Shown here piece by piece: positions 50,528 to 64,000 of a stretch of DNA of 64,000 nt (position 1 is the first letter of the stretch; every line of letters begins with the position of its first letter). This DNA comes from an uncultured Rhodospirillaceae bacterium (GTDB lineage: Bacteria; Pseudomonadota; Alphaproteobacteria; Rhodospirillales; Magnetospirillaceae), in assembly GCA_903941105.1 (NCBI GenBank), contig CAJANL010000235.1:1-64000 (forward strand), read 5' to 3'. The notes below the pieces were generated by a model. That model was given only the letters and a program-made list of their open reading frames with translations. It was not told the DNA's origin and did not search any database. The position numbers and the translations under genes were made by a program.

Positions 50528-51358
50528 TCATCCGCAGCCCGGGACTTGGCTTAGCAATTCTCGCCAGCGTTCCTTCCACCCCGTCTCGTGGGTTGCACCG
50601 GGCACCGTTCTGGCCGTGACACAGGCCGATCCGGCGGCTTGCCGGAACCGTTCGGCGATGGCCGGGGGCACGGTCCTGTCCGCCATGCCGCTCCAGTGTA
50701 TTTGCGGTATGCGGGCAACCTGTGAGGCAACGTCGACGGCATTAAGCGACCCGGACAGGGGCGAGACCTTGTTGAGGCGATTGACCTCCGCATGATCCAG
50801 GTTTCCCGCCACGGTCCGAATGGAGGCCACATCCTTGCGGCTGGCCGCGACCAGCACCGCCACGGCCCCGCCGCCGGAATAGCCGACGAGATTGATCTTC
50901 TGGCCGGGGGCCTGGGTCAGGACCTGGTCGATCGCTTGCCCCATCGACGCGATGACTTCCGGCGCGAACCGCTTGCCGGTCCAATAGGGGGTGCCACAAG
51001 TGGGATTCTTTGCCCTGGCGGTGAACTGGCAGGGCCGGGCGAGATAGACGACGTTCGCCCCCTGATCGACCGAGGCCAGTGCCAACCCCAGTGCTTCCCT
51101 CGGAGTCGGGTCGAGCGAGACCTCGGTACGCGACAGCCATGCCAGCCCGTCGCCCTCGATATAGATGGTGACGGGCTGCCCCGGATCGCGGATGCGGGCA
51201 AACGTGGTCAGCGCGAACGGATCGGTCTTGATCAACATCCGCTGGAGGCCAGCCGGTCTCGCCAGCGCGTCGGCATTCGCATCACGGTCGATGGCGGCGC
51301 ACCCGGCGAGCCCCGGGAATGCTGCGGCCAATAGCGTAAACAGCCGTGTCTTTTGCAT
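50528..51358 (-). CDS. Alpha/beta-hydrolase-like putative lipoprotein
   Basis: Signal with lipobox-like LAGC; NLVGYSGGGAVAVLVA nucleophile elbow. Confidence 0.75.
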   Translation of the reverse strand: MQKTRLFTLLAAAFPGLAGCAAIDRDANADALARPAGLQRMLIKTDPFALTTFARIRDPGQPVTIYIEGDGLAWLSRTEVSLDPTPREALGLALASVDQGANVVYLARPCQFTARAKNPTCGTPYWTGKRFAPEVIASMGQAIDQVLTQAPGQKINLVGYSGGGAVAVLVAASRKDVASIRTVAGNLDHAEVNRLNKVSPLSGSLNAVDVASQVARIPQIHWSGMADRTVPPAIAERFRQAAGSACVTARTVPGATHETGWKERWRELLSQVPGCG

Positions 51359-53445
51359 CAGAAGCCCTGCTTTATCGTTAGCAATCCGGTATGACTGGTG
51401 TAGCCGGTCCGTAGGTCACCCTGGTATTCGAGCCGCAGGGACAGATCATCGCTACGTTGCAGGGTGCCGCCAAGCACTACCTCCGCACCGTTGGATGGAA
51501 GACGGGCAGTATTCAGTACATAGCCTGCGCCGCTGAGATTGGCGACGGTGACGATGGGGCTATGGACATAGTCATGGTGCCAGCCAGCCTGGGCATCGCC
51601 GGTCAGCGGCCCCCAAGCCGTGTCGATGCGGCGTGCCAGCTTGACGCCCAGCACATTCTCGACATTGTTGAAGCTCTGCCCCTCCACGTTCTGGTTCACC
51701 GAGCTGCCGGTCTCGGTATAGCCCTGGTTCCATACCCGAGAGGCGCGGAGGCTGCCCATGGGGGTGACGGTGAGGGCCTCGTTCATCGCGAGGTCATATC
51801 CGGCGGTCAGCTTTGCCTGCCCCTGCCAGCCGTGATACTCGGCGTTCGCCGTCTCGCCCAGAAAGCTGATGCCGCGCTTCTGGTCGTAATGATTGAACCC
51901 AACCGAGGTCAGTCCCTGCAGCCATAGCGCCTCTGCCGAGGGGCGCCAGGTGGCGTAGAGGTTCAGTTGGTAAGTGTCGGTGACGCTGGAATTGCCCGAG
52001 GCGCTGTCGCGGCCCTTGGCGGCGTTGCGCAGCCAATTGACGGTGGCGCCGGCCACCACGTTGTCGGAGGCATGCACGTCGGCACCGAACAGCAGGCCAT
52101 AGGCGTTGGATGAAAAGCCGCTGCCCGCCGACGAGGTGTCCAGATTGGTGTGGTTGCCCAGCACCTGTCCCCACAGCGCCCCCTTGTTATAGCCGTTACC
52201 GGTCGAGACGCCCGTGGTGGTGCCCTGGCCGTCGGAATTTCGGCTCATGCGGCCGCTCAGATGGTTGCCGATTGCGGCATTGCTGGGAGTGGTGGTCGAG
52301 CCGCTGGCCGCTACCGAAGCGGACAGGCTGGTGGCGCCCAACTGGCTCATGGCGCGCTGCTGCTCCGATCCCGACAGGACGGCCAAGCCCGACAACTGGT
52401 TGGCCAGGCCGCCCTGGGCGGCGATCTGGTCGAGGGTCTGACCGAGGGCGATGCCGTTTCCCCCCATCGGCCGGCCAACCACGGCCCAGGCGGAAGACCT
52501 GATGGTTAGGTTGTAGCAGTAGGTCGAAACGCCACAACTGCCGCTCAGCCCCAAGGCGTAGGTCATGCCGCCCACCGTCACATAGCTGAAGGTCAGCGGC
52601 GAACTGGAGGCGATGACGTCGGCATAGGTGCTGGCGGCATAATTGACGCCGCTGGCCTTGGCGAGGCCGTAGGTCAGGTTGGTGTCGGTGGTGGTGAAGA
52701 CCACCGTGCCGGGGGAGGCGGCGCTGCTGAAATAGGTGTTGTAGGTACCGGGCAGAGTTCCATTAAAGGTAAGGCCGCGCTGGGCGTTGGTCAGGGTGCC
52801 GATGGTGCCGGTGTTGTCGATGCCGTATGAACCGCCACCGCCGGTGATGGTGCCGGTATTGGTCAGGGTGCTGATGCCAAGTTCGACGTTTAAAATGGCG
52901 CTGCCGTTGCTGCTGGTGATGATGCCGGAATTGATTAGAGCATCAGTGGAAAATATATATACAGCTTGGCCCCAATTGCCGGTGTTGGAGATGGTCCCGG
53001 TGTTAGTCAGGGTGCCCATGAAACCGGTGTGTATGGTGTAGGTCGTAAAATTGGCACCGCTGATGATGGTGCCGCCATTGCTCAGGGAGGTAATGTTGCC
53101 TTTATTGTCGACCGCAGTATCGTGACCGCTAATTGTACCGGTGTTGATAAGGGTGCCTATAGTGGCAAGTGGGTCATTATAGATGCCGCGTGTGTTTGAT
53201 CCGCTGCCAATGATGGTGCCATCGTTAGTCAATGCACCGATATTCTAAAAATTTATTATGGCGTGGCCGTGGTTATTCGTGTTCTCCACCCTCACTCCGC
53301 TGGCGACACTGAAATCCCCATCCGCAGGAATGGTGTAGGCGGTGTTGGTGCTCGGGATTGCCGTCTCGGCCCAGGCGGCACTTGCCGCCATCAAGGCCGG
53401 GAACGCCACGGCGGAGCACAGGAGGACGCGAAGGCGCACGATCAA
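51358..53445 (-). pseudogene. Autotransporter (type Va) interrupted by an in-frame TAG at 53245-53247
   Basis: 53445..53248 encodes signal peptide (SAAWAETAIPSTNTAYTIP...HGHAIINF); after TAG the same frame continues NIGALTNDGTIIGSG... through the barrel to 51358. Confidence 0.85.
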
Positions 53446-56213
53446 AATTCCATGCGGGCCTGTAACGATCCGGTATGGCTGACAAAGCGGTCGCTCAGGC
53501 CCGCGTCGTACTTGGCCGAGATCGTCATGTTGCGGACGGAGGCCATGTCGACGCCGATACCCAGGGTGAAGGATTCGCGAGCAACCTCTGAGGCTGCGGT
53601 GGTGAAGGACGAACCACCATCGACATAGCTCGAGGTCTGATTCTGGGCTGAGGTGTTGAACTCGTGCTGCCAGATGGCCCGCGCGTTCGGCTTGATATCC
53701 CAGTCGCCGATCTTGGCCATGGTGGTTGAAACCTTGGCCCCCAGGCCGGATTTGATCGAGTCGGTCTCCGAACTTCCGACCGACAGGGCAGCAGCCGCCC
53801 CGGTTTCGGTATAGGCGTCCTGACTAAGGTGGTTGTAGGCCAGTGACAGCAGCGGTGTGACGGTGGTCTTGCCGACCGGCAGGGGCACGCCCAATTCCGC
53901 CTTGGCGCCGTACTGCTGTCCCGCATACGAGGACTTGGCGGTCTGCCGGCTGGCCCCCGAGATGTTGATCACGCGGGTGCCGTCATAGTCGTGCACGCCG
54001 TAGGTGAGCGCTCCGTCCACATGCCAGCGCTCGGCGGAATAGGTGCCATAGAGGCTGGCGATATAGGAGCTGATGTCCTGGCCCGAACCGTCGCGCGAAC
54101 CCGAATCGGCGACGTTGGTCCGGGCATAGGCAAGCGACAGCCCCAGGCGCACCGCGTCCAGCACCTTGGCATCGGCGCCAAAGGCGAGGCCGTAGGTGTC
54201 GGCCGAATAGCCGTCTACGTCCTGGCGACGATCCTGGGTGGCGGTCGAGCCGAAGCCCTGCCCCCACACCCCCAGCCCACGCAGCATTTCACCCGACGAG
54301 ACGCCGGTGCCGCCGGTGTCGGCCGAGGCGGCCCGCACGCTGTCGGTGCGGATCGAGATGGTGTTGACGGCCTGCCCGACCGCGCCCAGCGCCGCCTGGG
54401 TGGTGCCGCCGTTGGTCGAGGGGCGCAACTGGGCCGCCGCCTTCTCGATATCCTTGCTGTCGGTCAGGTTGTTGACCGCGCTGGACAACGACATCATGGC
54501 GGCGTTGGAGCCGGAATAGGTCGCCAGGGTGCTGAGGCCCTTGCTGTTTACCGCCGTCGTGGCGGCGGCGGCGTTGGCCCCGGCCGAAGTCAGAATCACG
54601 TTGGTGTAGCCGGTGCCATAGGAAACGCCATCGGTGTCGGTCTCACCGGCGCCGGTGACCGAACTGACCGTCCAGCGGACGCCTCCGGAATTGACCACGG
54701 TGGGCATATTGACGATGGTGCGGCCCACAGTGTCCTGAACGATCACGTATTTTGCCCCGGTCGCCACTGATCCGACAATGGTAGGCGTAATGACGGGGAC
54801 ACCACTATTCAACATCGTGCCCGCCGGCATGTCGTTGAAAACCCAATATCCATGTCCACCGGAAGTCGTGTTGATGGTGGTCTTCAGAATATATGTTTGG
54901 CTCAGATTTTCGCTTCCACCGGCAACATAATTCCAGGTCAGCTTTGATGTCCCAAGGTCAAATGTACTGTTGCTGTAGAGCGTTATGCCTTGCGAATATA
55001 TCTGTGAGTCGCCACCGAGAGTGAGAGTTGATCCATTGGCAATAGTTACGGACTGGCTTTCCGTAATGTTTCCGGTAAAGGTAGTCGTTCCACCTTGGAA
55101 TCTAATGGAAGAGGATGTTCCCGACCCTTCACCGGTAATATTGCCGGTTGCCGTGTTTCCGCCCTGACTTCCATCAAATATGAAGGTGTCGCCAAAAGCA
55201 GACGCCTTGATCCTGCCGGTGATGGTTCCGTAGTTGGTTAACGTCGAGGCGCCAGTGCCAGAGTGATAGGAGACGGCGGTATCGTTTGTTCCGTTCGTCG
55301 ATTTCGAAATAGTACCGTAGTTGACAATCGACGTTCCGGTTCCACTGCTCTTTATTGTTGGTGTGTCATTCTGTGACGTGGCGGATGAGATTGTTCCGTA
55401 GTTAGTGATGGTGGTGGAGGCAATTCCACTCCCAATCTCGATGGCTGGATAGGCATTGCCGGAAGTGGCTATTGTTCCCCGGTTAGTAATGCTCGCGTTG
55501 GCAGCCCCAACAGCGATACCAATTCCACCAGCTCCGATGATCTGGCCGGTACTGTAGTTGTTTATCGTTGCGCCGGTAGCCGCGCTGCCAATAGCAACTG
55601 CCGCATTGTTGATATTGTAGGTGGCTGGTGTGCCCCCATTGGCGCTTCCGTTCGTTCCTCTCGTACCGGATTGAACTGTTCCCGCATTGGTCAGCGTTGC
55701 GTTGGCGCTTCGAATGTCCACGCCGGAAGCACCGCCATTTACACCCGCCGTGCCTCCGGTGCCACCAGCCGCTCCACCATTGCCGCCCGTGCCTCCCTGA
55801 ACAGTCGCCCCTTGTGAAATGGAAATAGTCGCGGGATTAACGCCATAGTTCACATAAATACCTGCGCTGTCGCCGCCATCCCCACCATTAAAGGCTCCTG
55901 CACTCCCGTCACCGCCATTGCCGCCGGTGCCACCGGTAACCGTGCCACCAGTGACGTTCACGACCGTGCTGCTGGCATTCATATTGATGCCGGCACTATT
56001 GTTGCCGTTACTGCCGTTGCCAGGAGATCCGTTGCTGCCGTTGGAAGCTGTCGGCCCTGTGACTGTTCCAGAACTGGTATAGGGTGTATTTCCACCGTTC
56101 ACAGTCACGTTCGCGTCTGCGGCGAATTGCGCCCACGCAGACCCCGCCGTCATGACCAAGATCGCCAGGGGGGACACGCTCGCCAACAACGCACGATTAA
56201 TCGACCACTTCAT
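53442..56213 (-). CDS. Autotransporter domain-containing protein with Gly/Asn/Thr-rich passenger
   Basis: Signal peptide MKWSINRALLASVSPLAILVMTAGSAWA; MLRGLGVWGQGFGSTATQDRRQDVDGYSADTYGLAFGAD; terminal F. Confidence 0.92.
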   Translation of the reverse strand: MKWSINRALLASVSPLAILVMTAGSAWAQFAADANVTVNGGNTPYTSSGTVTGPTASNGSNGSPGNGSNGNNSAGINMNASSTVVNVTGGTVTGGTGGNGGDGSAGAFNGGDGGDSAGIYVNYGVNPATISISQGATVQGGTGGNGGAAGGTGGTAGVNGGASGVDIRSANATLTNAGTVQSGTRGTNGSANGGTPATYNINNAAVAIGSAATGATINNYSTGQIIGAGGIGIAVGAANASITNRGTIATSGNAYPAIEIGSGIASTTITNYGTISSATSQNDTPTIKSSGTGTSIVNYGTISKSTNGTNDTAVSYHSGTGASTLTNYGTITGRIKASAFGDTFIFDGSQGGNTATGNITGEGSGTSSSIRFQGGTTTFTGNITESQSVTIANGSTLTLGGDSQIYSQGITLYSNSTFDLGTSKLTWNYVAGGSENLSQTYILKTTINTTSGGHGYWVFNDMPAGTMLNSGVPVITPTIVGSVATGAKYVIVQDTVGRTIVNMPTVVNSGGVRWTVSSVTGAGETDTDGVSYGTGYTNVILTSAGANAAAATTAVNSKGLSTLATYSGSNAAMMSLSSAVNNLTDSKDIEKAAAQLRPSTNGGTTQAALGAVGQAVNTISIRTDSVRAASADTGGTGVSSGEMLRGLGVWGQGFGSTATQDRRQDVDGYSADTYGLAFGADAKVLDAVRLGLSLAYARTNVADSGSRDGSGQDISSYIASLYGTYSAERWHVDGALTYGVHDYDGTRVINISGASRQTAKSSYAGQQYGAKAELGVPLPVGKTTVTPLLSLAYNHLSQDAYTETGAAAALSVGSSETDSIKSGLGAKVSTTMAKIGDWDIKPNARAIWQHEFNTSAQNQTSSYVDGGSSFTTAASEVARESFTLGIGVDMASVRNMTISAKYDAGLSDRFVSHTGSLQARMEF

Positions 56214-56615
56214 TGCATCCCCCAGTCCCACAGTGCGGGACGGCTAACTCGGTTTCTGATCGTCCCTGCGTTCCGTCGGGGACGGCCATTGGCGTGGGCC
56301 GGTTTCACTCTCACGGATAACTACGCGGCAGACTTGCAGCCCCGCGCGGCTATGCGCAATCAATGAGAAATGTTTCCAGAGAGTTCATCGCGCTTAGCTA
56401 GGCTCTGTCTCGCGCTTGGACTCGTCCTCATAGATTTTCCTGGCGGATTCCTCTCCGCATGTCCCGCATCCAGAAGTGCGGCGCAATGAGCGGGGCGAGA
56501 AGCGACAACTCCAACCTCACCGGCACGTTTTTCCACTTTCGCGTACGGTATCCGTCACCACATCGGCCGCAAGTTGGCATTTTTACCCAGTGCGGTCGGG
56601 GCGCCCCCAGCCTCG

Positions 56616-57044
56616 TCATGCCTGGATAAGCCCAAGGTCCAGGGCCGTGGCGATTGCCTGGCTGCGGCCACGGGCCTTGAGTTGCCGGGCGGCGGCGGTG
56701 AAGTGGTGCTCCACCGTCCGCACCGACAGGCCCAAGCGGGCGGCGATTTCCTTCGAGCGCAACCCCTGGGCGGCGAGGCCCAAAATCTCGCGCTGCCGCG
56801 GTGAAAGCGTCAGGGGCAGACCGCCCTTTTTCTTGGCCGCCACCTGTCGGCAAAGTTCCAGCGCCCGTGCCATGTGGGGGATCAGGAGCCTGAAGGCGGC
56901 CCGCGCCTCCTCGGTGAAGTGCGGTGCGTCATCGAACTGGACGGTCTCGATGCGCGTCACCACGTCGTGCTTCCCTTGAGTCACGGCGGCGTACAGTCGG
57001 GCGGTCAGATCCAGGACCTCTTGCAGATCGAACGGCCTGGTCAT
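56616..57044 (-). CDS. Short LuxR-type HTH transcriptional regulator
   Basis: LTLSPRQREILGLAAQGLRSKEIAARLGLSVRTVEHHFTAAARQL. Confidence 0.9.
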   Translation of the reverse strand: MTRPFDLQEVLDLTARLYAAVTQGKHDVVTRIETVQFDDAPHFTEEARAAFRLLIPHMARALELCRQVAAKKKGGLPLTLSPRQREILGLAAQGLRSKEIAARLGLSVRTVEHHFTAAARQLKARGRSQAIATALDLGLIQA

Positions 57045-57432: not shown

Positions 57433-59766
57433 ATGTTGCGACGGGTTTTAGGTTTTGCCGGCGCATTACTGACGGTCCTGTATGCGGCCAATTGCTACGC
57501 CCAGTTCGGTGGCGGCTTTTCGGGGGTTCAGACTCGCATCCTCGAACGCTCCATCAGCCGCAATCTCGACCGCATCTTCAAGCCGAAGCTGATCATTTCG
57601 AAAGGTGCAACCGGCCCGGTCACCGCCGTGGGGTTGAGTGACGATGAGCACTACCTGGTCTCGGCCGTCGGCGACAACACTGTCCGGGTCTGGGACCTGT
57701 GGGTTGGACGCGAGCTGGCGCGCCTTCCCGCCCATGGCGACCGGATTACAGCAGTTGCCGTCGGCCATCGGGGCAATTTCTTTGCGACCGCCTCGCAGGA
57801 CCGAACGGTGAAAATCTGGAGCCTCAGGCGTCTCGGGCCGCCCGTGACCCTCGGGGCGCCAAACGCCGAAATTACCAGCCTGACATTTCTGGGCGATGAC
57901 AGCCGATTGGCGACGGTTGGCGTCGATGGGGGGGTGAAGGTCTGGTCTTTGTCCGATAAGCGGGTCTTGTCCGACTTTCAGGCCCATGGCGCCGGCCGGG
58001 CGGTGATCGCCGCGCCGCCGGATGGCACCCGGATCGTGAGCGCCGGGGCCGACGGCTTTGTTCGTGTGTGGAATTCCGCGTCGGGGGAACGGATGGCCGA
58101 GATCGGCTCCGGCGGGGCGGCGACGGCCCTGAGCCTCAATCGCGAAGACGGACGAATTGCGGCGGCCCTGCTTGATGGGTCGATCGTGCTGCTTCAGGCC
58201 GATGGGGCGCGGATCGGGCAGTTGGTCGGGCATGACGGCAAAGTCTCGTCGGTCGCCTTCGTCCCCAAGACCGGGCGGCTATTATCCGGCGGAATCGACG
58301 GGACGGTACGGCTGTGGGACGCGCAGGCGCCTGGGCGGGAACCACGGGTTTTCGGGCGGCACGATGGTCCGGTAACCGGCGTGGAAGTGAGCCATGACGG
58401 CGCCTTTGCCATGTCGGTGTCCGAGGATGGAACCACGCGCTTGTGGAATGTGGCAACCGGAGCCCAACTCCTGACGTTGATTTCCACCACTTCGGGTTGG
58501 GCGGTGATTGACGCCAAGGGCCGTTATGACGGCAATGAGCCCGCTCTCTCGGGGATTGATTGGCGGTCCGATGATGCGGTGGCCAATATCGACGATTTTG
58601 CGGAGACCCATTACCAATCGGCGCTGCTGCCCAGGACACTCAAGGACGGGGAGGCCATCGCCGATGCCAAGACCATCGTCGATGGCGTGGCCTATCCGCC
58701 GAAAATCCGGATTGTCTCCGAAACCGGGCGAGCAGAGACCAAGTCGGTGGTCGTCGAGATCACGGCCGAGGATAACGGTGGCGGCGGCGTCTCGGAAATC
58801 CGCCTGTATCGAAACGGCAAGCTGGTGCGCGCGAGCGCCGGCCAGATGCGACGGGACGACCCGAAGCGGCTGGTGGGGCGGTATGAGTTGGATGTCGAGA
58901 GTGGGCAGACGGTCGTTTCCGCCACCGCAATCAACAATGAACGCCTGGAGAGCCGTCCCGAGACTATCACCGTGGCGAGCGGGCGGCCGCAGCGCCGGGG
59001 CAAAATCCATCTTCTTACCGTCGGCATTAACAAATATCGGGACCGCAGCCTCGATCTTTTTTACGCGAAACCCGACGCTCAGAGCATCGATGGCTATTTC
59101 GCTGCCGGCAAGGCGGCCTTGCCCGTGGCGGCCCAGGTCGCACTACGCGACGGACAGGCCACCCGGGACAATATCCTGGCCGCGATACGCACGTTCCGGG
59201 ACGTGCCGCAGGAGGATATGGTTGTCGTTTACCTCGCTGGCCACGGGGTGAGTGCGGGCGACCAATGGTATTTCATCAGCCATGACGCCCAGCTTTCGGG
59301 TGACGTCCAAGATGGCGCCATCGGCGTTCTCTCGTCGTCGGAGATCAAGGCTGAAGTTGAAGCGCTGAATGCCGATCGAATCCTGCTTTTGATCGACACC
59401 TGCCATTCAGGGTCTCTGGTGGAGCCGATCAAGGATTACCGCGGAATGAAGGCGTTGCGGCTGTTGGCCCGAACCGTCGGAACTCATGTGCTTGCGGCCA
59501 CCGATCGCACCCAGTCTGCGATCGAACTGCAAAAGCTTGGCCATGGGATATTTACCTACGCGCTCCTCGATGGCCTGAAGGGCAATGCCGATTACATCGG
59601 TAATGGCGTCGTCTCCGCAACCGGCTTGGTTCGCTATGTCGAAGAGGCGGTCCCGCTTCTGGCAAAGCAATACGCCGAGGATGATCAGTACCCAACGGGC
59701 CTCTCGCGAGGAATTGACTTTCCCGTTTCAGTTGCTGAGCAGTCCAGAGTCTTAACAGGTCGCTAA
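57433..59766 (+). CDS. Exported WD40-repeat protein with C-terminal caspase-like (peptidase C14) domain
   Basis: Signal peptide ending CYA|QF; WD repeats (NTVRVWDLWVG, RTVKIWSLRR, GTVRLWDAQ, GTTRLWNVATG); VVVYLAGHGVS and RILLLIDTCHSGS dyad. Confidence 0.92.
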   Translation: MLRRVLGFAGALLTVLYAANCYAQFGGGFSGVQTRILERSISRNLDRIFKPKLIISKGATGPVTAVGLSDDEHYLVSAVGDNTVRVWDLWVGRELARLPAHGDRITAVAVGHRGNFFATASQDRTVKIWSLRRLGPPVTLGAPNAEITSLTFLGDDSRLATVGVDGGVKVWSLSDKRVLSDFQAHGAGRAVIAAPPDGTRIVSAGADGFVRVWNSASGERMAEIGSGGAATALSLNREDGRIAAALLDGSIVLLQADGARIGQLVGHDGKVSSVAFVPKTGRLLSGGIDGTVRLWDAQAPGREPRVFGRHDGPVTGVEVSHDGAFAMSVSEDGTTRLWNVATGAQLLTLISTTSGWAVIDAKGRYDGNEPALSGIDWRSDDAVANIDDFAETHYQSALLPRTLKDGEAIADAKTIVDGVAYPPKIRIVSETGRAETKSVVVEITAEDNGGGGVSEIRLYRNGKLVRASAGQMRRDDPKRLVGRYELDVESGQTVVSATAINNERLESRPETITVASGRPQRRGKIHLLTVGINKYRDRSLDLFYAKPDAQSIDGYFAAGKAALPVAAQVALRDGQATRDNILAAIRTFRDVPQEDMVVVYLAGHGVSAGDQWYFISHDAQLSGDVQDGAIGVLSSSEIKAEVEALNADRILLLIDTCHSGSLVEPIKDYRGMKALRLLARTVGTHVLAATDRTQSAIELQKLGHGIFTYALLDGLKGNADYIGNGVVSATGLVRYVEEAVPLLAKQYAEDDQYPTGLSRGIDFPVSVAEQSRVLTGR

Positions 59767-59883
59767 TGTCGTTGATCCGGCACATGATACCCCTTATCAT
59801 AGAGATATGAATTCAGATATTATCCCATCTATAGATGGCCGTTAGGCTGCTTCCAGATGCGGACTAGAGAGGGGGCGGGTTTA

Positions 59884-60930
59884 ATGCGGTATGGATATGC
59901 AGTGTTCGCGGGGGCAATGATGCTTGCCTCCCCATTTGGCGCGGCTTATGCCGCAAGCAGCAGCGAGACAGTTCCTACCGCAGTGGCGACGACGACCGCA
60001 GTCTCGCAGACCTCCACACAAAACGTCGTCCGCACGATCTCAAACGCCATCAGTGGCAGCTTGGCGCGTGTGTTCAATTCAGGAGGCATGTTCAAGTCCG
60101 GTCCCTCCAACAAGCGTACCAGCATGGCGGATGGGGAGACCGGAATCTCGGCGGGCGAGGGTGGAGCAACGATCGGCACATGGGGTAGCCTCGATTACAC
60201 CTATCTCCGCGTCGTTCCTGATGGGAACTCGGATCAACGCCGATTGACCGACATCTACACCGGGGTCGCGGGGGCGGATTACGCCTTCGATGATCATTTG
60301 CTTGGGGGGGTGGCGGTGAGCTATGCCAGAGCAAACACAGACGGGCGCAAGACAAAGACAAATGGCGCCAAACTTAATCAGGAATCAGACTCAATAACCG
60401 TGTCGCCGTATTTAGGCTATTCTCCATTGGAGAATCTAACCATTGACAGCATGATCGGATACACCCATTCTTTTATTCGGACTCACGATTACAGCTCGTC
60501 AACCGTGGCAACCGGCAGTAATGATTCTGATACATATTTCGCTGCGGTCAATGCAGGTTATGTATTTGGGCTGACGGACCATTTGGCCTTTAAAGTTTTT
60601 GCCGGCTTCAGCGCCCAACATGCCGAGGTAGACAGCTATCGCGACAGCCAGAATAATGACATTCAGGGGGATACTTCCGAGCATTGGCAGGCTCGGGTTG
60701 GAGGAAAACTGATGACTGCCTTGGCAGACACCTCCCAGGGTTACCTCTCCGCTGCCTACGAGCGCGATAAGTCCATGGTTGCGATCTCCGAGAGTTCGCT
60801 CCGGCTTTCTGCTGGAACAGCGACGGACATATCCTCGGCTCTGAACTTTAACCTCGAGGCGACGGCAAACGTTGGTCGTGAGACCCAGCAGGAGTATGGC
60901 CTCGCCGCCAACCTCCGCCTGGCGTTCTGA
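59884..60930 (+). CDS. Autotransporter beta-barrel protein with minimal passenger
   Basis: Signal peptide SPFGAAYA|ASSS; WGSLDYTYLRV...GVAGADYAFDDHLLGGVAVSYARANTDG...YGLAANLRLAF-stop. Confidence 0.85.
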   Translation: MRYGYAVFAGAMMLASPFGAAYAASSSETVPTAVATTTAVSQTSTQNVVRTISNAISGSLARVFNSGGMFKSGPSNKRTSMADGETGISAGEGGATIGTWGSLDYTYLRVVPDGNSDQRRLTDIYTGVAGADYAFDDHLLGGVAVSYARANTDGRKTKTNGAKLNQESDSITVSPYLGYSPLENLTIDSMIGYTHSFIRTHDYSSSTVATGSNDSDTYFAAVNAGYVFGLTDHLAFKVFAGFSAQHAEVDSYRDSQNNDIQGDTSEHWQARVGGKLMTALADTSQGYLSAAYERDKSMVAISESSLRLSAGTATDISSALNFNLEATANVGRETQQEYGLAANLRLAF

Positions 60931-61030
60931 CGCAAAGCTGCTGTGGCTGGCGTTCGAACTCGGCTATTGACGCCCCGGTTCGCGTCCACTCATCCTATTT
61001 ATAGTTGGGCTATCTGACGGGGGCGTGAGC

Positions 61031-61471
61031 ATGAACATTCGCACCGGACTGGTGATTTTTGCCGTGGCGTTGATCCAGGGGGGGGTGCCGGCCATCGCGG
61101 ACCCCTTAATCACGGACGAAGAGGCGATGCTGCCGACACCGTCGGCCGTCAAAAATGCCCGTGGCATCTCGCGCGGGCCATCCATTCGCTATGAGATGCC
61201 AGAACCTGTTGCTGCCCACAAACCCTTCACCTTCAAAATAGAATTCGAGCCGCATGGCAAGGCAACGATTGATCCGGCGAAGGTGCAGGTCACCTATCTC
61301 AAGCTTCCCAGCATCGACCTGACAACGCGCATCCGGCCGTTCATTACGCACAAAGGTATTGATTTCCCAATGGCCGAGGTGCCGGCTGGGCGTCACCCGC
61401 TAAGGATCGACATTGAAGACAGCAGTGGCAGAACTAGCCAGGCGACCCTTGTCTTGGTCGCCGAAAAGTAG
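61031..61471 (+). CDS. Exported hypothetical protein
   Basis: Signal peptide (GVPAIADP); possible beta-sandwich: PVAAHKPFTFKIEFEPHGKATIDPAKVQVTYLKLPSIDLT. Confidence 0.65.
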   Translation: MNIRTGLVIFAVALIQGGVPAIADPLITDEEAMLPTPSAVKNARGISRGPSIRYEMPEPVAAHKPFTFKIEFEPHGKATIDPAKVQVTYLKLPSIDLTTRIRPFITHKGIDFPMAEVPAGRHPLRIDIEDSSGRTSQATLVLVAEK

Positions 61472-61484
61472 CTTCCGTTGGATG

Positions 61485-62249
61485 TCAGCTGTAGAATTTT
61501 GACAACGCGGCACCAACGGCAGCCATTGCTGTTGTCCCGGTCATGACGGCGTAAATCCACCCGGCAATCGTGGCGATACGACGGTGGATGTCTGCCCGGC
61601 TTTCAAGGGGGCCCGCCGAACTGTTGGCAAGAATGGTAGCCAACTCGCGGGTGAGCGATCCCATGGCTTTGGATGGATGCTGGCGCATCTTGATGCGCCG
61701 GCCAATCATGCCGCTTGCCAGGTAAGCTAGGGCAATACTGGCGAAGTATTGAATCGTCTCCACCCATTCGCGGCTCCCCTGCGGCATGAACGGAACATGG
61801 TCGATCAGGGCGGTGGTTGCCAACATTCCAGACACGCTCGCGACGCCAATCAGAATGCCTGTCCAGAGTATCGCTGTCAGGGAATGTGTATATCGGAGGC
61901 CGAATGCCAGGGGGATAGCAATGGATATTGCGCGAAGGGCGCGGGTATCCATGTCGAGTAGTCCAACAATTGTCCAATGCGCGAAAACAAGCAGAAGCAC
62001 CGGCAGTGCCAACCAAGCAACCATTGCGCCCGCGGTCACCCACCTTTTCTGCGGCTTGGCCGCGTGCCCTGAAGCCTCGACATGGCTTCCCAACTCATGG
62101 ATTGCCGCTTCAACGGCGGCCAGACGGGCGACTATACCTTCCTGCTGCGACAAAATTGCGCGCATGACCAGGAACGAGACGTCGCGACCGCAGAAAGGGC
62201 AGGCGACCGCATGATTGCTGATCTCTTTAGTGCAAAATGGGCAGTCCAC
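61485..62249 (-). CDS. Hypothetical membrane protein with N-terminal double-CxxC zinc ribbon
   Basis: MDCPFCTKEISNHAVACPFCGRDV followed by several TM segments. Confidence 0.7.
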   Translation of the reverse strand: MDCPFCTKEISNHAVACPFCGRDVSFLVMRAILSQQEGIVARLAAVEAAIHELGSHVEASGHAAKPQKRWVTAGAMVAWLALPVLLLVFAHWTIVGLLDMDTRALRAISIAIPLAFGLRYTHSLTAILWTGILIGVASVSGMLATTALIDHVPFMPQGSREWVETIQYFASIALAYLASGMIGRRIKMRQHPSKAMGSLTRELATILANSSAGPLESRADIHRRIATIAGWIYAVMTGTTAMAAVGAALSKFYS

Positions 62250-62267: not shown

Positions 62268-62489
62268 CTATTGCTTCACAGGTCCGCAGCAGTTTTTCAT
62301 GCGCTCGATTAAAGCCTTTTGGGCATCTGGGTCGATGGTCCGGTCGCGCCGCCCAACCACCGTCCCATCGATTGCGATTGGTGCGATGTCCTGCTCGATC
62401 GGCGACGCGTTATCGATGGGGCCTGTTGGGGGTGTTGAACATCCAGCGAGTACAAATGCAAATAAAACGGCCAAGGAAATTCCGTTCAC
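62268..62489 (-). CDS. Small putative lipoprotein (GTG start)
   Basis: Lipobox LAGC in MNGISLAVLFAFVLAGCSTPPTG. Confidence 0.55.
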   Translation of the reverse strand: MNGISLAVLFAFVLAGCSTPPTGPIDNASPIEQDIAPIAIDGTVVGRRDRTIDPDAQKALIERMKNCCGPVKQ

Positions 62490-62511
62490 GCCCCCTCCCT
62501 TCCGGCCAGCT

Positions 62512-63114
62512 TCATCCAGCCATAACGGCATTTGTGATGTGCGCTAAATGTTGGCGATAGTAACCTTCAATCGCTCCAGTGGACACTATTATTACTTGCC
62601 CGACGTTTATGCGTTCAAAAAGGCCACCATTAGCTACGGCAACAAGGGTCTTACGGCAAGTCTCCGGGGAGATAAGTGGGGCGAGGAAGCGCCCAATGTC
62701 CGATTGATCAAGACGTAACCGCCCGCCGACGGTGTTTTCAACTACTTTCGCCTTCTGTTCGGATGAGAACATTGCCTCAATCAAACGTGCCCGTTGAACC
62801 CCCTGAAGTTGCATTTTGTCAGGGGTGTTTAACAAGGCATCCATATCTTGGTTGTGCTTGTCAATGAAACTGGCGATGCGCTCTGGGGTATTTAACCGGA
62901 ATTCATCCACCAAATAATAGAATTCCGCCACCTGAAAGGCATTGTCGCTCCGCAGCAAGGCCACAGGGGCGTCCTGTGCGATTTTTCCCGTGGCGGCAAG
63001 GGATTTTTTGTGCCGTTCAGCATGGGACACAATCGCGTCGAAAAACATCGACCGCGCCGTCCGGATGGCGTCGAGGCAGGCAAGTTCACGCCCCCCGGAA
63101 CACGTATGAGCCAT
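62512..63114 (-). CDS. Hypothetical protein
   Basis: MAHTCSGGRELACLDAIRTARSMFFDAIVSHAERHKK... Confidence 0.55.
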   Translation of the reverse strand: MAHTCSGGRELACLDAIRTARSMFFDAIVSHAERHKKSLAATGKIAQDAPVALLRSDNAFQVAEFYYLVDEFRLNTPERIASFIDKHNQDMDALLNTPDKMQLQGVQRARLIEAMFSSEQKAKVVENTVGGRLRLDQSDIGRFLAPLISPETCRKTLVAVANGGLFERINVGQVIIVSTGAIEGYYRQHLAHITNAVMAG

Positions 63115-63184
63115 CCCGACACTCCCCCAGGACGTTGAAGTGCGACTATAGCGGGCGGAAGGCAAGCCGCCAACCCACAGCAGC

Positions 63185-63604
63185 CGGTCGTGTCCCGCCG
63201 AGCGGCGGATGGAGTTGGAGGTGGCGACGCTGACCGGCGCCGGCCACGGCGAGCGCAAGCCGGATCAGCGCCTCACTCACCGTAACGGATACCGCGAGCG
63301 AGACTGGGAGACCCGGGCCGGCACGGTGGAGTTGCGCATCCCGAAACTCCGGACCGGCAGCTTCAAGAGCCAGGTCTCGCGCCTATGCGGCAAGATCGCC
63401 ACCTTCCTTGACAGCCCGCTGGAAGCCGACTGGCCCTATGTCTGGCTCGACGCCACCTATGTGATGGTGCGCCGGGGTCTGCGCGGCGTCAGGCTGGTGA
63501 TCTCCGACGCCCACGAGGGTATCAAGGCCGCCATCACCAGGCTGATCGGCGCCATCCTGCTCGAGCAGAACGATGAATGGACCGTACAGCGCGCCCGCTA
63601 CATC
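63185..63604 (+). pseudogene. IS256-family transposase remnant with several in-frame internal deletions
   Basis: [52 protein letters not shown] / [11 protein letters not shown] / [24 protein letters not shown] / [21 protein letters not shown] / [24 protein letters not shown]. Confidence 0.85.
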
Positions 63605-63628
63605 ACCCGATCGAAACGTTGGGTCCCG

Positions 63629-63874
63629 CTATTTGGCGTCCTTGGGGCCCGGTGTCGGCGTTGTCGGTCTGGCGGCCTCGGCGGCATTCTTGTCGGCCTT
63701 CCTGGCCTCCTCGACGGCCTGCTGGGCGGCCCGCTGGCTTGCCTCGGCGGCATTGCGCGACGCCTGCGTGCCCGCTTCCATCGAAGCAGACGAGCCGGTA
63801 TTGGGGGAAGTCTGGGCCATGGCGGGGCCGCCCACGAGCAGGGCCAGGGCGGCTGCGGTGATGATTGTCTTCAA
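63629..63874 (-). CDS. Small exported Ala-rich protein (TTG start)
   Basis: Strong RBS GAGGAGG; signal peptide [26 protein letters not shown]. Confidence 0.55.
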
Positions 63875-64000
63875 GTCATCCTCCTCTGTTTGATCCGGAC
63901 CGGCCGTCCTTCGGCCAGCCGGGTATTCCCGCCAATGCGGGATGGTGTGAAAGATTCTTCCATTCGTCGGCCCAGCAACAGACGTGTCCGAAGCCAGCAA

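Follow-up and report, generated by a model that had tools for sequence, protein, structure and literature searches.

Discussions of caspase homologues in bacteria usually treat them as enzymes that act in the cytoplasm, in cell death or in defence against phages. The protein described here is encoded in the window, a 64,000-nucleotide stretch of DNA from an uncultured Rhodospirillaceae bacterium, and its closest described relatives are the bacterial orthocaspases and metacaspases of family C14 (GSU0716, structure 3bij; MaOC1). It has in common with them a p20-type core, a His-Cys dyad and two S1 aspartates, and differs from them by an export signal, an N-terminal WD40 and Ig-like domain and a neighbourhood of barrel, cyclase and lipoprotein genes. 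The NACHT-WD40 (STAND) metacaspases also combine a caspase with WD40 repeats, but the window's protein lacks an NTPase, as the Pfam scan revealed no NACHT or STAND ATPase between WD40 and caspase, and it carries its caspase at the C-terminus instead of the N-terminus and is predicted to be exported. The paracaspase MALT1 has an Ig-like domain beside its caspase domain and an Arg-type S1 pocket, but it is a cytoplasmic eukaryotic signalling protein with neither WD40 repeats nor export.

In the metacaspase survey of Asplund-Samuelsson et al. from 2012, WD40 was the commonest extra domain (73/671), 46 metacaspase-only proteins had an N-terminal helix that is possibly a signal peptide, and OmpA was found in 14 operons (PMC3501461). 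The exported YS pseudo-orthocaspases of cyanobacteria, reported in 2019, resemble the window's caspase in their export signal and acidic S1 pocket (PMC6426788). However, they have lost the dyad (Tyr/Ser) and are Tat-like, while the window's caspase retains H604 and C657 and has a Sec signal and WD40 repeats. Exported caspase homologues as such are thus not new, having been suspected already in 2012. On the other hand, the 2012 text does not mention the autotransporter-barrel and cyclase neighbours or the single-cysteine pattern found here. In the open-access literature we found no report of the barrel/hydrolase/CHASE2-cyclase cluster or of the single-cysteine pattern in dyad-intact WD40 forms, nor any of a caspase with an autotransporter, CHASE2 or FecR.

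Domain architecture of the caspase protein

The open reading frame at 57433-59766 on the plus strand starts with ATG and encodes a protein of 777 amino acids. From the N- to the C-terminus it comprises a signal peptide, a WD40 propeller, an Ig-like linker and a Peptidase_C14 domain. Its features are as follows.

57433..59766, plus strand: exported-type WD40/Ig-like/caspase protein, 777 aa (ORF call, Pfam matches, codon positions)
57433..57501, plus strand: Sec-type signal peptide, residues 1-23, with cleavage predicted before Q24 (sequence and conservation in homologues)
57601..58482, plus strand: WD40 beta-propeller, about residues 57-350 (PF00400; AF2)
58684..58977, plus strand: Ig-like beta-sandwich linker, about residues 418-515 (PF17957 Big_7; AF2 strands)
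58993..59727, plus strand: caspase (Peptidase_C14) domain, about residues 521-765 (PF00656; PDB profile matches; Foldseek)
59074..59076, plus strand: D548, predicted S1-pocket acid (invariant in 22 homologues; metacaspase alignment)
59242..59244, plus strand: H604, predicted catalytic residue (invariant; aligned to the metacaspase catalytic His)
59395..59397, plus strand: D655, predicted S1-pocket acid two residues before the Cys (invariant in 22 homologues)
59401..59403, plus strand: C657, predicted catalytic residue and sole cysteine of the mature protein (aligned to AtMC4 C139)

A preliminary description of this DNA had claimed the reading frame, the WD40 repeats and the C-terminal caspase domain, and had placed the codons of H604 and C657 at 59242 and 59401; all of these were found, and the codon positions are exact. 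The HMM search that it proposed matched both families. In the Pfam scan of the whole protein, PF00400 matched six stretches (E 6.7e-46), and the propeller core was modelled by AF2 with pLDDT values of mostly 70-90. The linker matched PF17957 Big_7 under the family cut-off (E 0.0027), and its strands are present in the AF2 model. Peptidase_C14 ranks beneath the WD40 families in the full-length listing, but when the C-terminal half was scanned alone, PF00656 scored 38.1 bits against a cut-off of 21.4 (E 1.8e-9). The PF00656 scan of the window's genome missed the gene, although the domain is above cut-off when scanned alone, and genome counts based on PF00656 may therefore understate the caspase family. 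Against the model for EACC1-associated caspases (NF047832) the protein reached 71.5 bits, under the cut-off of 140.

Active site and predicted specificity

The predicted dyad lies in the motifs GHG (H604) and DxCxSG (C657), and both residues are invariant in 22 of 22 aligned homologues. When a profile of these 22 caspase domains was compared with the PDB, it matched GSU0716 (1.8e-5), Arabidopsis metacaspase-4 (3.8e-5) and yeast metacaspase-1 (9e-4). In the alignments, H604 and C657 fall on the catalytic residues of the solved C14 structures, and C657 is also aligned with the Cys that was mutated to Ala in entry 6w8r. Structure prediction was less informative. The caspase half was poor in the full-length AF2 model, which was built from two sequences, and the model of the domain alone, built from three sequences, had low confidence (pLDDT 55.7, pTM 0.62). 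When the low-confidence domain model was submitted to Foldseek, the best matches were 3bij, which the profile search had also found, followed by MALT1 and caspases, with a probability of 1.00. Juxtaposition of H604 and C657 is thus predicted from the alignment to solved structures together with a low-confidence model that Foldseek assigned to C14.

The acidic residues D548, in α1, and D655 are likewise invariant in the 22 sequences. D548 occupies the α1 position of TbMCA2 Asp95 and MALT1 Asp365, and D655 corresponds to TbMCA2 Asp211. The two TbMCA2 residues have been implicated in substrate binding, and MALT1 Asp365 and Asp462 line its Arg S1 pocket (PMC4357240; PMC6426788). Because the dyad and both acids are invariant, and the acids match those that accept a basic P1 residue in TbMCA2 and MALT1, cleavage after Arg or Lys is predicted for the caspase domain. 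The position of TbMCA2 Ser156 is occupied by Ala (A602) in the window's caspase, which we count against the explanation favoured below.

The domain might instead serve as a non-catalytic scaffold or receptor, like the pseudo-orthocaspases of cyanobacteria, and exported relatives that carry a Tat-like signal and have lost the dyad are indeed known (PMC6426788). Nevertheless, not one of the 22 aligned homologues departs from the His, the Cys or the S1 acids, and we regard such a role as very doubtful. An intact protease is the reading that we prefer.

Export signal and cysteine content

The preliminary description had also proposed a Sec-type signal peptide and export, and several observations support this. 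First, the N-terminus, MLRRVLGFAGALLTVLYAANCYA followed by Q, shows the n-h-c pattern of a Sec signal. Second, all 21 full-length sequences in the order set have an N-terminal export signal, and so do the class-level homologues. The order-set signals mostly end at a small-x-small site directly before Q, while their h-regions are unrelated to each other, and two homologues, in G176 and G256, have Tat-like starts (SRRQF and SRRKF). Third, 17 of the 21 full-length order-set homologues have no cysteine besides the catalytic one after the signal peptide, and of the 9 readable homologues from other orders, 8 likewise have a single mature cysteine. Other proteins of 450-1100 aa encoded at these loci provide a comparison: their median is about 7 cysteines per 1000 residues, and a few of them lack cysteine altogether. 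Such a scarcity of cysteines other than the catalytic one would fit a cysteine enzyme in an oxidising compartment. Based on the retention of a signal peptide in divergent homologues, two of them Tat-like, and the near absence of non-catalytic cysteines, the prediction that the caspase leaves the cytoplasm is well supported. If the hydrophobic N-terminus were an uncleaved anchor or an annotation error, the protein would be cytoplasmic, but the n-h-c pattern, the cleavage site in homologues, the two Tat-like signals, the cysteine depletion and the envelope neighbours all argue against this, and it appears extremely improbable.

The preliminary description had set this export against bacterial caspase homologues of which many are cytoplasmic. 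The export itself stands, but the contrast needs care, because metacaspase export had been suspected as early as 2012 (PMC3501461) and several further caspase homologues in the window's own genome begin with signal peptides. In this genome, 13 further matches to Peptidase_C14 were obtained. The four that were read in frame (L001, L002, L004 and L007; contigs C64, C196 and C103) have signal-peptide-like N-termini and the motif FYYAGHGI, and by eye the C-termini of two of them resemble FGE-sulfatase-type domains.

Distribution of homologues

The window's genome is a 4.48-Mb draft of the family Magnetospirillaceae (order Rhodospirillales), to which Paramagnetospirillum also belongs, and the host is related to the magnetotactic spirilla. 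Close orthologues with 41-56% identity over the full length were found in G027, G024, G003, G017, G145, G157 and G059, the one in G024 being located on a Paramagnetospirillum caucaseum SO-1 contig. G148 has a partial orthologue, and in G054 the gene is broken, being split into several frames (L062, contig C64), apparently as a pseudogene or through a draft-assembly error. A strong match to linker plus caspase was obtained in about 20 of the 317 genomes of the order and any match at 1e-30 in 35 of them, and the corresponding figure for the class sample was 13 of 385. More distant exported caspase homologues adjoin OmpA-family genes (L107-L110, L113, L114 and L065), and a glycine-zipper gene is also nearby in L065 and L104, forming a differing envelope neighbourhood.

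Genes surrounding the caspase

The genes around the caspase in the window are as follows.

50528..51358, minus strand: alpha/beta-hydrolase lipoprotein, lipobox LAGC, nucleophile elbow GYSGG (PF12146/PF00561 weak; homologues)
51358..53232, minus strand: second autotransporter, 624-aa ORF (PF03797 E 4.7e-49)
53442..56231, minus strand: autotransporter, 929 aa (PF03797 E 6.4e-60)
56616..57044, minus strand: LuxR-type (GerE) regulator (PF00196 E 2.1e-15; 56% homologue in the G157 cluster)
59857..60930, plus strand: short autotransporter-type beta-barrel with signal peptide and C-terminal Phe, without passenger (PF03797 E 4.3e-26; 13-barrel alignment)
61025..61471, plus strand: 148-aa exported protein without Pfam match (54% homologue in the G157 caspase cluster)
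61485..62249, minus strand: membrane protein with N-terminal zinc-ribbon-like motif (PF13240 under cut-off; 45% homologue in the G157 cluster)
62268..62531, minus strand: predicted lipoprotein, 87 aa (both G027 and G157 have a homologue next to the caspase)
62512..63258, minus strand: conserved protein of the cluster, ORF of 248 aa (G027 and G157 have homologues of 56-62% identity next to the caspase)

The autotransporters that had been noticed beside the caspase are real, with PF03797 matching three window genes. The short barrel of 357 aa begins 90 bp downstream of the caspase, although its start may be the Met at 59884, and a counterpart with 54% identity adjoins the caspase in G027. The arrangement differs from a Type Va autotransporter in that the caspase has no barrel and the adjacent barrel has no passenger. 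In G157, the homologue of the 929-aa autotransporter is immediately upstream of hydrolase and caspase on the same strand, and relatives of the hydrolase directly adjoin the caspase in G003, G017, G148 and G157. Similarity of the 62512-63258 ORF to its relatives begins only near residue 57, suggesting that its start may have been replaced by an insertion. From 63209 to 64000 and onward on contig C235, broken IS-type transposase-like fragments were seen by eye at the edge of the conserved cluster. At L066:4880-7279 (about 63.9-66.3 kb of C235), a second alpha/beta-hydrolase, 37% identical to that at 50528-51358, is divergent from a fourth autotransporter barrel, so that the hydrolase-barrel pairing is repeated.

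Conservation of the neighbourhood

Of 14 genomes, 9 have an autotransporter beta-domain no more than 10 kb from the caspase and 6 have a CHASE2 protein at such a distance, where a random-placement statistic that ignores shared ancestry predicts 0.15 and 0.16, respectively. This result of the proposed synteny check on caspase and barrel strengthens the envelope link suggested in the preliminary description. Autotransporter domains are scarce in these genomes (0-6 per genome): G027, G003 and G148 have one each, and it is the one linked to the caspase, while G017, G145 and G157 have two and G024 has six. The window's genome has four, all of them less than 9 kb from the caspase (51.4-66.2 kb of the contig). 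In an alignment of 13 barrels, those adjoining caspases are mostly 318-361 aa long and consist of a signal peptide, a short linker, the barrel domain and a terminal Phe, without a passenger.

The CHASE2 proteins combine CHASE2 with an adenylate/guanylate cyclase and usually have as companion an exported protein, about 240 aa long, in which two cysteines are invariant. In the window's genome such a pair lies 23 kb downstream on the same contig (82708, 83459). The exported family (L057:13614-14342, L142:10709-11401 and homologues) has no Pfam match over cut-off and carries an invariant Arg in G-x-x-R. Members were found in 56 of the order's 317 genomes, usually encoded next to a CHASE2 adenylate cyclase. 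The family is common without this caspase, since only 10 of the 56 partner-bearing genomes have the caspase. The G-x-x-R of this partner was considered as a caspase site and rejected: all 30 homologues have the Arg, but it is just as invariant in genomes without the caspase, so it gives no reason to name the caspase in particular as the enzyme that cuts there.

These neighbourhoods could merely be synteny inherited within one lineage, with the caspase acting as a stand-alone exported house-cleaning protease that has no ties to barrel or cyclase. Barrel-linked caspases are mostly in one clade, several homologues have no barrel nearby (relatives G059, G176, G256 and G153), and the barrel link needs at least two gains or losses on the tree, and no more. 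No cyclase was found nearby in relatives G003, G017, G145, G148 and G157. Against this view, order, strand and barrel sequence diverge strongly and yet the set stays together, and an adjacent barrel is also present in a distant second clade (29% identity) and in loci outside the order. For example, G157 has nearly the full window set in another order (barrel, zinc-ribbon protein, 148-aa protein, LuxR, autotransporter, hydrolase, caspase, 62512 protein and lipoprotein), with a hydrolase 75% identical to that of the window. Outside the order, G611 (L133) has a CHASE2 cyclase, a barrel, a hydrolase, the exported partner, the caspase and a second CHASE2 cyclase within about 9 kb. Gene content that is kept while order and strand vary argues for function over mere inertia, and we consider simple inheritance unlikely, while still giving it some weight. 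A functional tie to the envelope set is the reading that we retain.

The protein might also be a secreted effector against neighbouring cells or a surface-acting self-killing protease. Extracellular death or fratricide has been proposed for exported metacaspases (PMC3501461), and the caspase domain matches the PADLOC caspase model weakly (E 1.3e-10). However, we noticed neither an immunity gene nor a secretion tag nor a defence partner in the conserved neighbourhoods, and the protein contains no NACHT or STAND ATPase, making an effector of this kind improbable. An anti-phage defence role was set aside as well, as the PADLOC match is weak and partial and no defence partner was seen among the scanned neighbours. 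Instead, the neighbourhood of the caspase in its relatives suggests a protease working in the envelope and not the usual cytoplasmic death or defence role.

Proposed role in the envelope

We give about an even chance to the following explanation. An intact orthocaspase- or metacaspase-like C14 enzyme would be exported by Sec, fold in the periplasm and act in that compartment or at the outer membrane. Docking of a partner or substrate would probably fall to the WD40 propeller, and the caspase domain at the C-terminus would cut after a basic residue, Arg or Lys. Around the gene stands a recurrent envelope set: a short barrel and an alpha/beta-hydrolase lipoprotein, joined in many relatives by a CHASE2 transmembrane adenylate cyclase with its exported partner. 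The likeliest job of the caspase would be regulated processing of an envelope protein from this set, and the envelope state may be read out via the CHASE2 cyclase.

Two observations concern how caspase and barrel might be related. For a split-autotransporter arrangement, the N-terminal helix of the caspase was compared with the pore helix of the neighbouring barrel, and it beat shuffled sequences in only 3 of 7 pairs, which does not firmly support such an arrangement. A conserved Arg/Lys site in the barrel linker is missing in G157.

The explanation could be extended to a more specific module, which we hold to be rather unlikely. Here a single-cysteine, Sec-exported caspase would be docked by its WD40 propeller to the passenger-less barrel, and its cut after Arg or Lys in the exported partner would be read by the CHASE2 cyclase, leading to cAMP. 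If this were true, caspase activity outside the cytoplasm would set cAMP inside, an envelope protease-signalling module new to biology. The caspase cluster supplies named partners and residues with which the role of exported caspases can be tested. A conserved, dyad-intact family outside the cytoplasm, tied to barrels and to a cyclase that senses the periplasm, would indicate that the caspase fold can function in the envelope.
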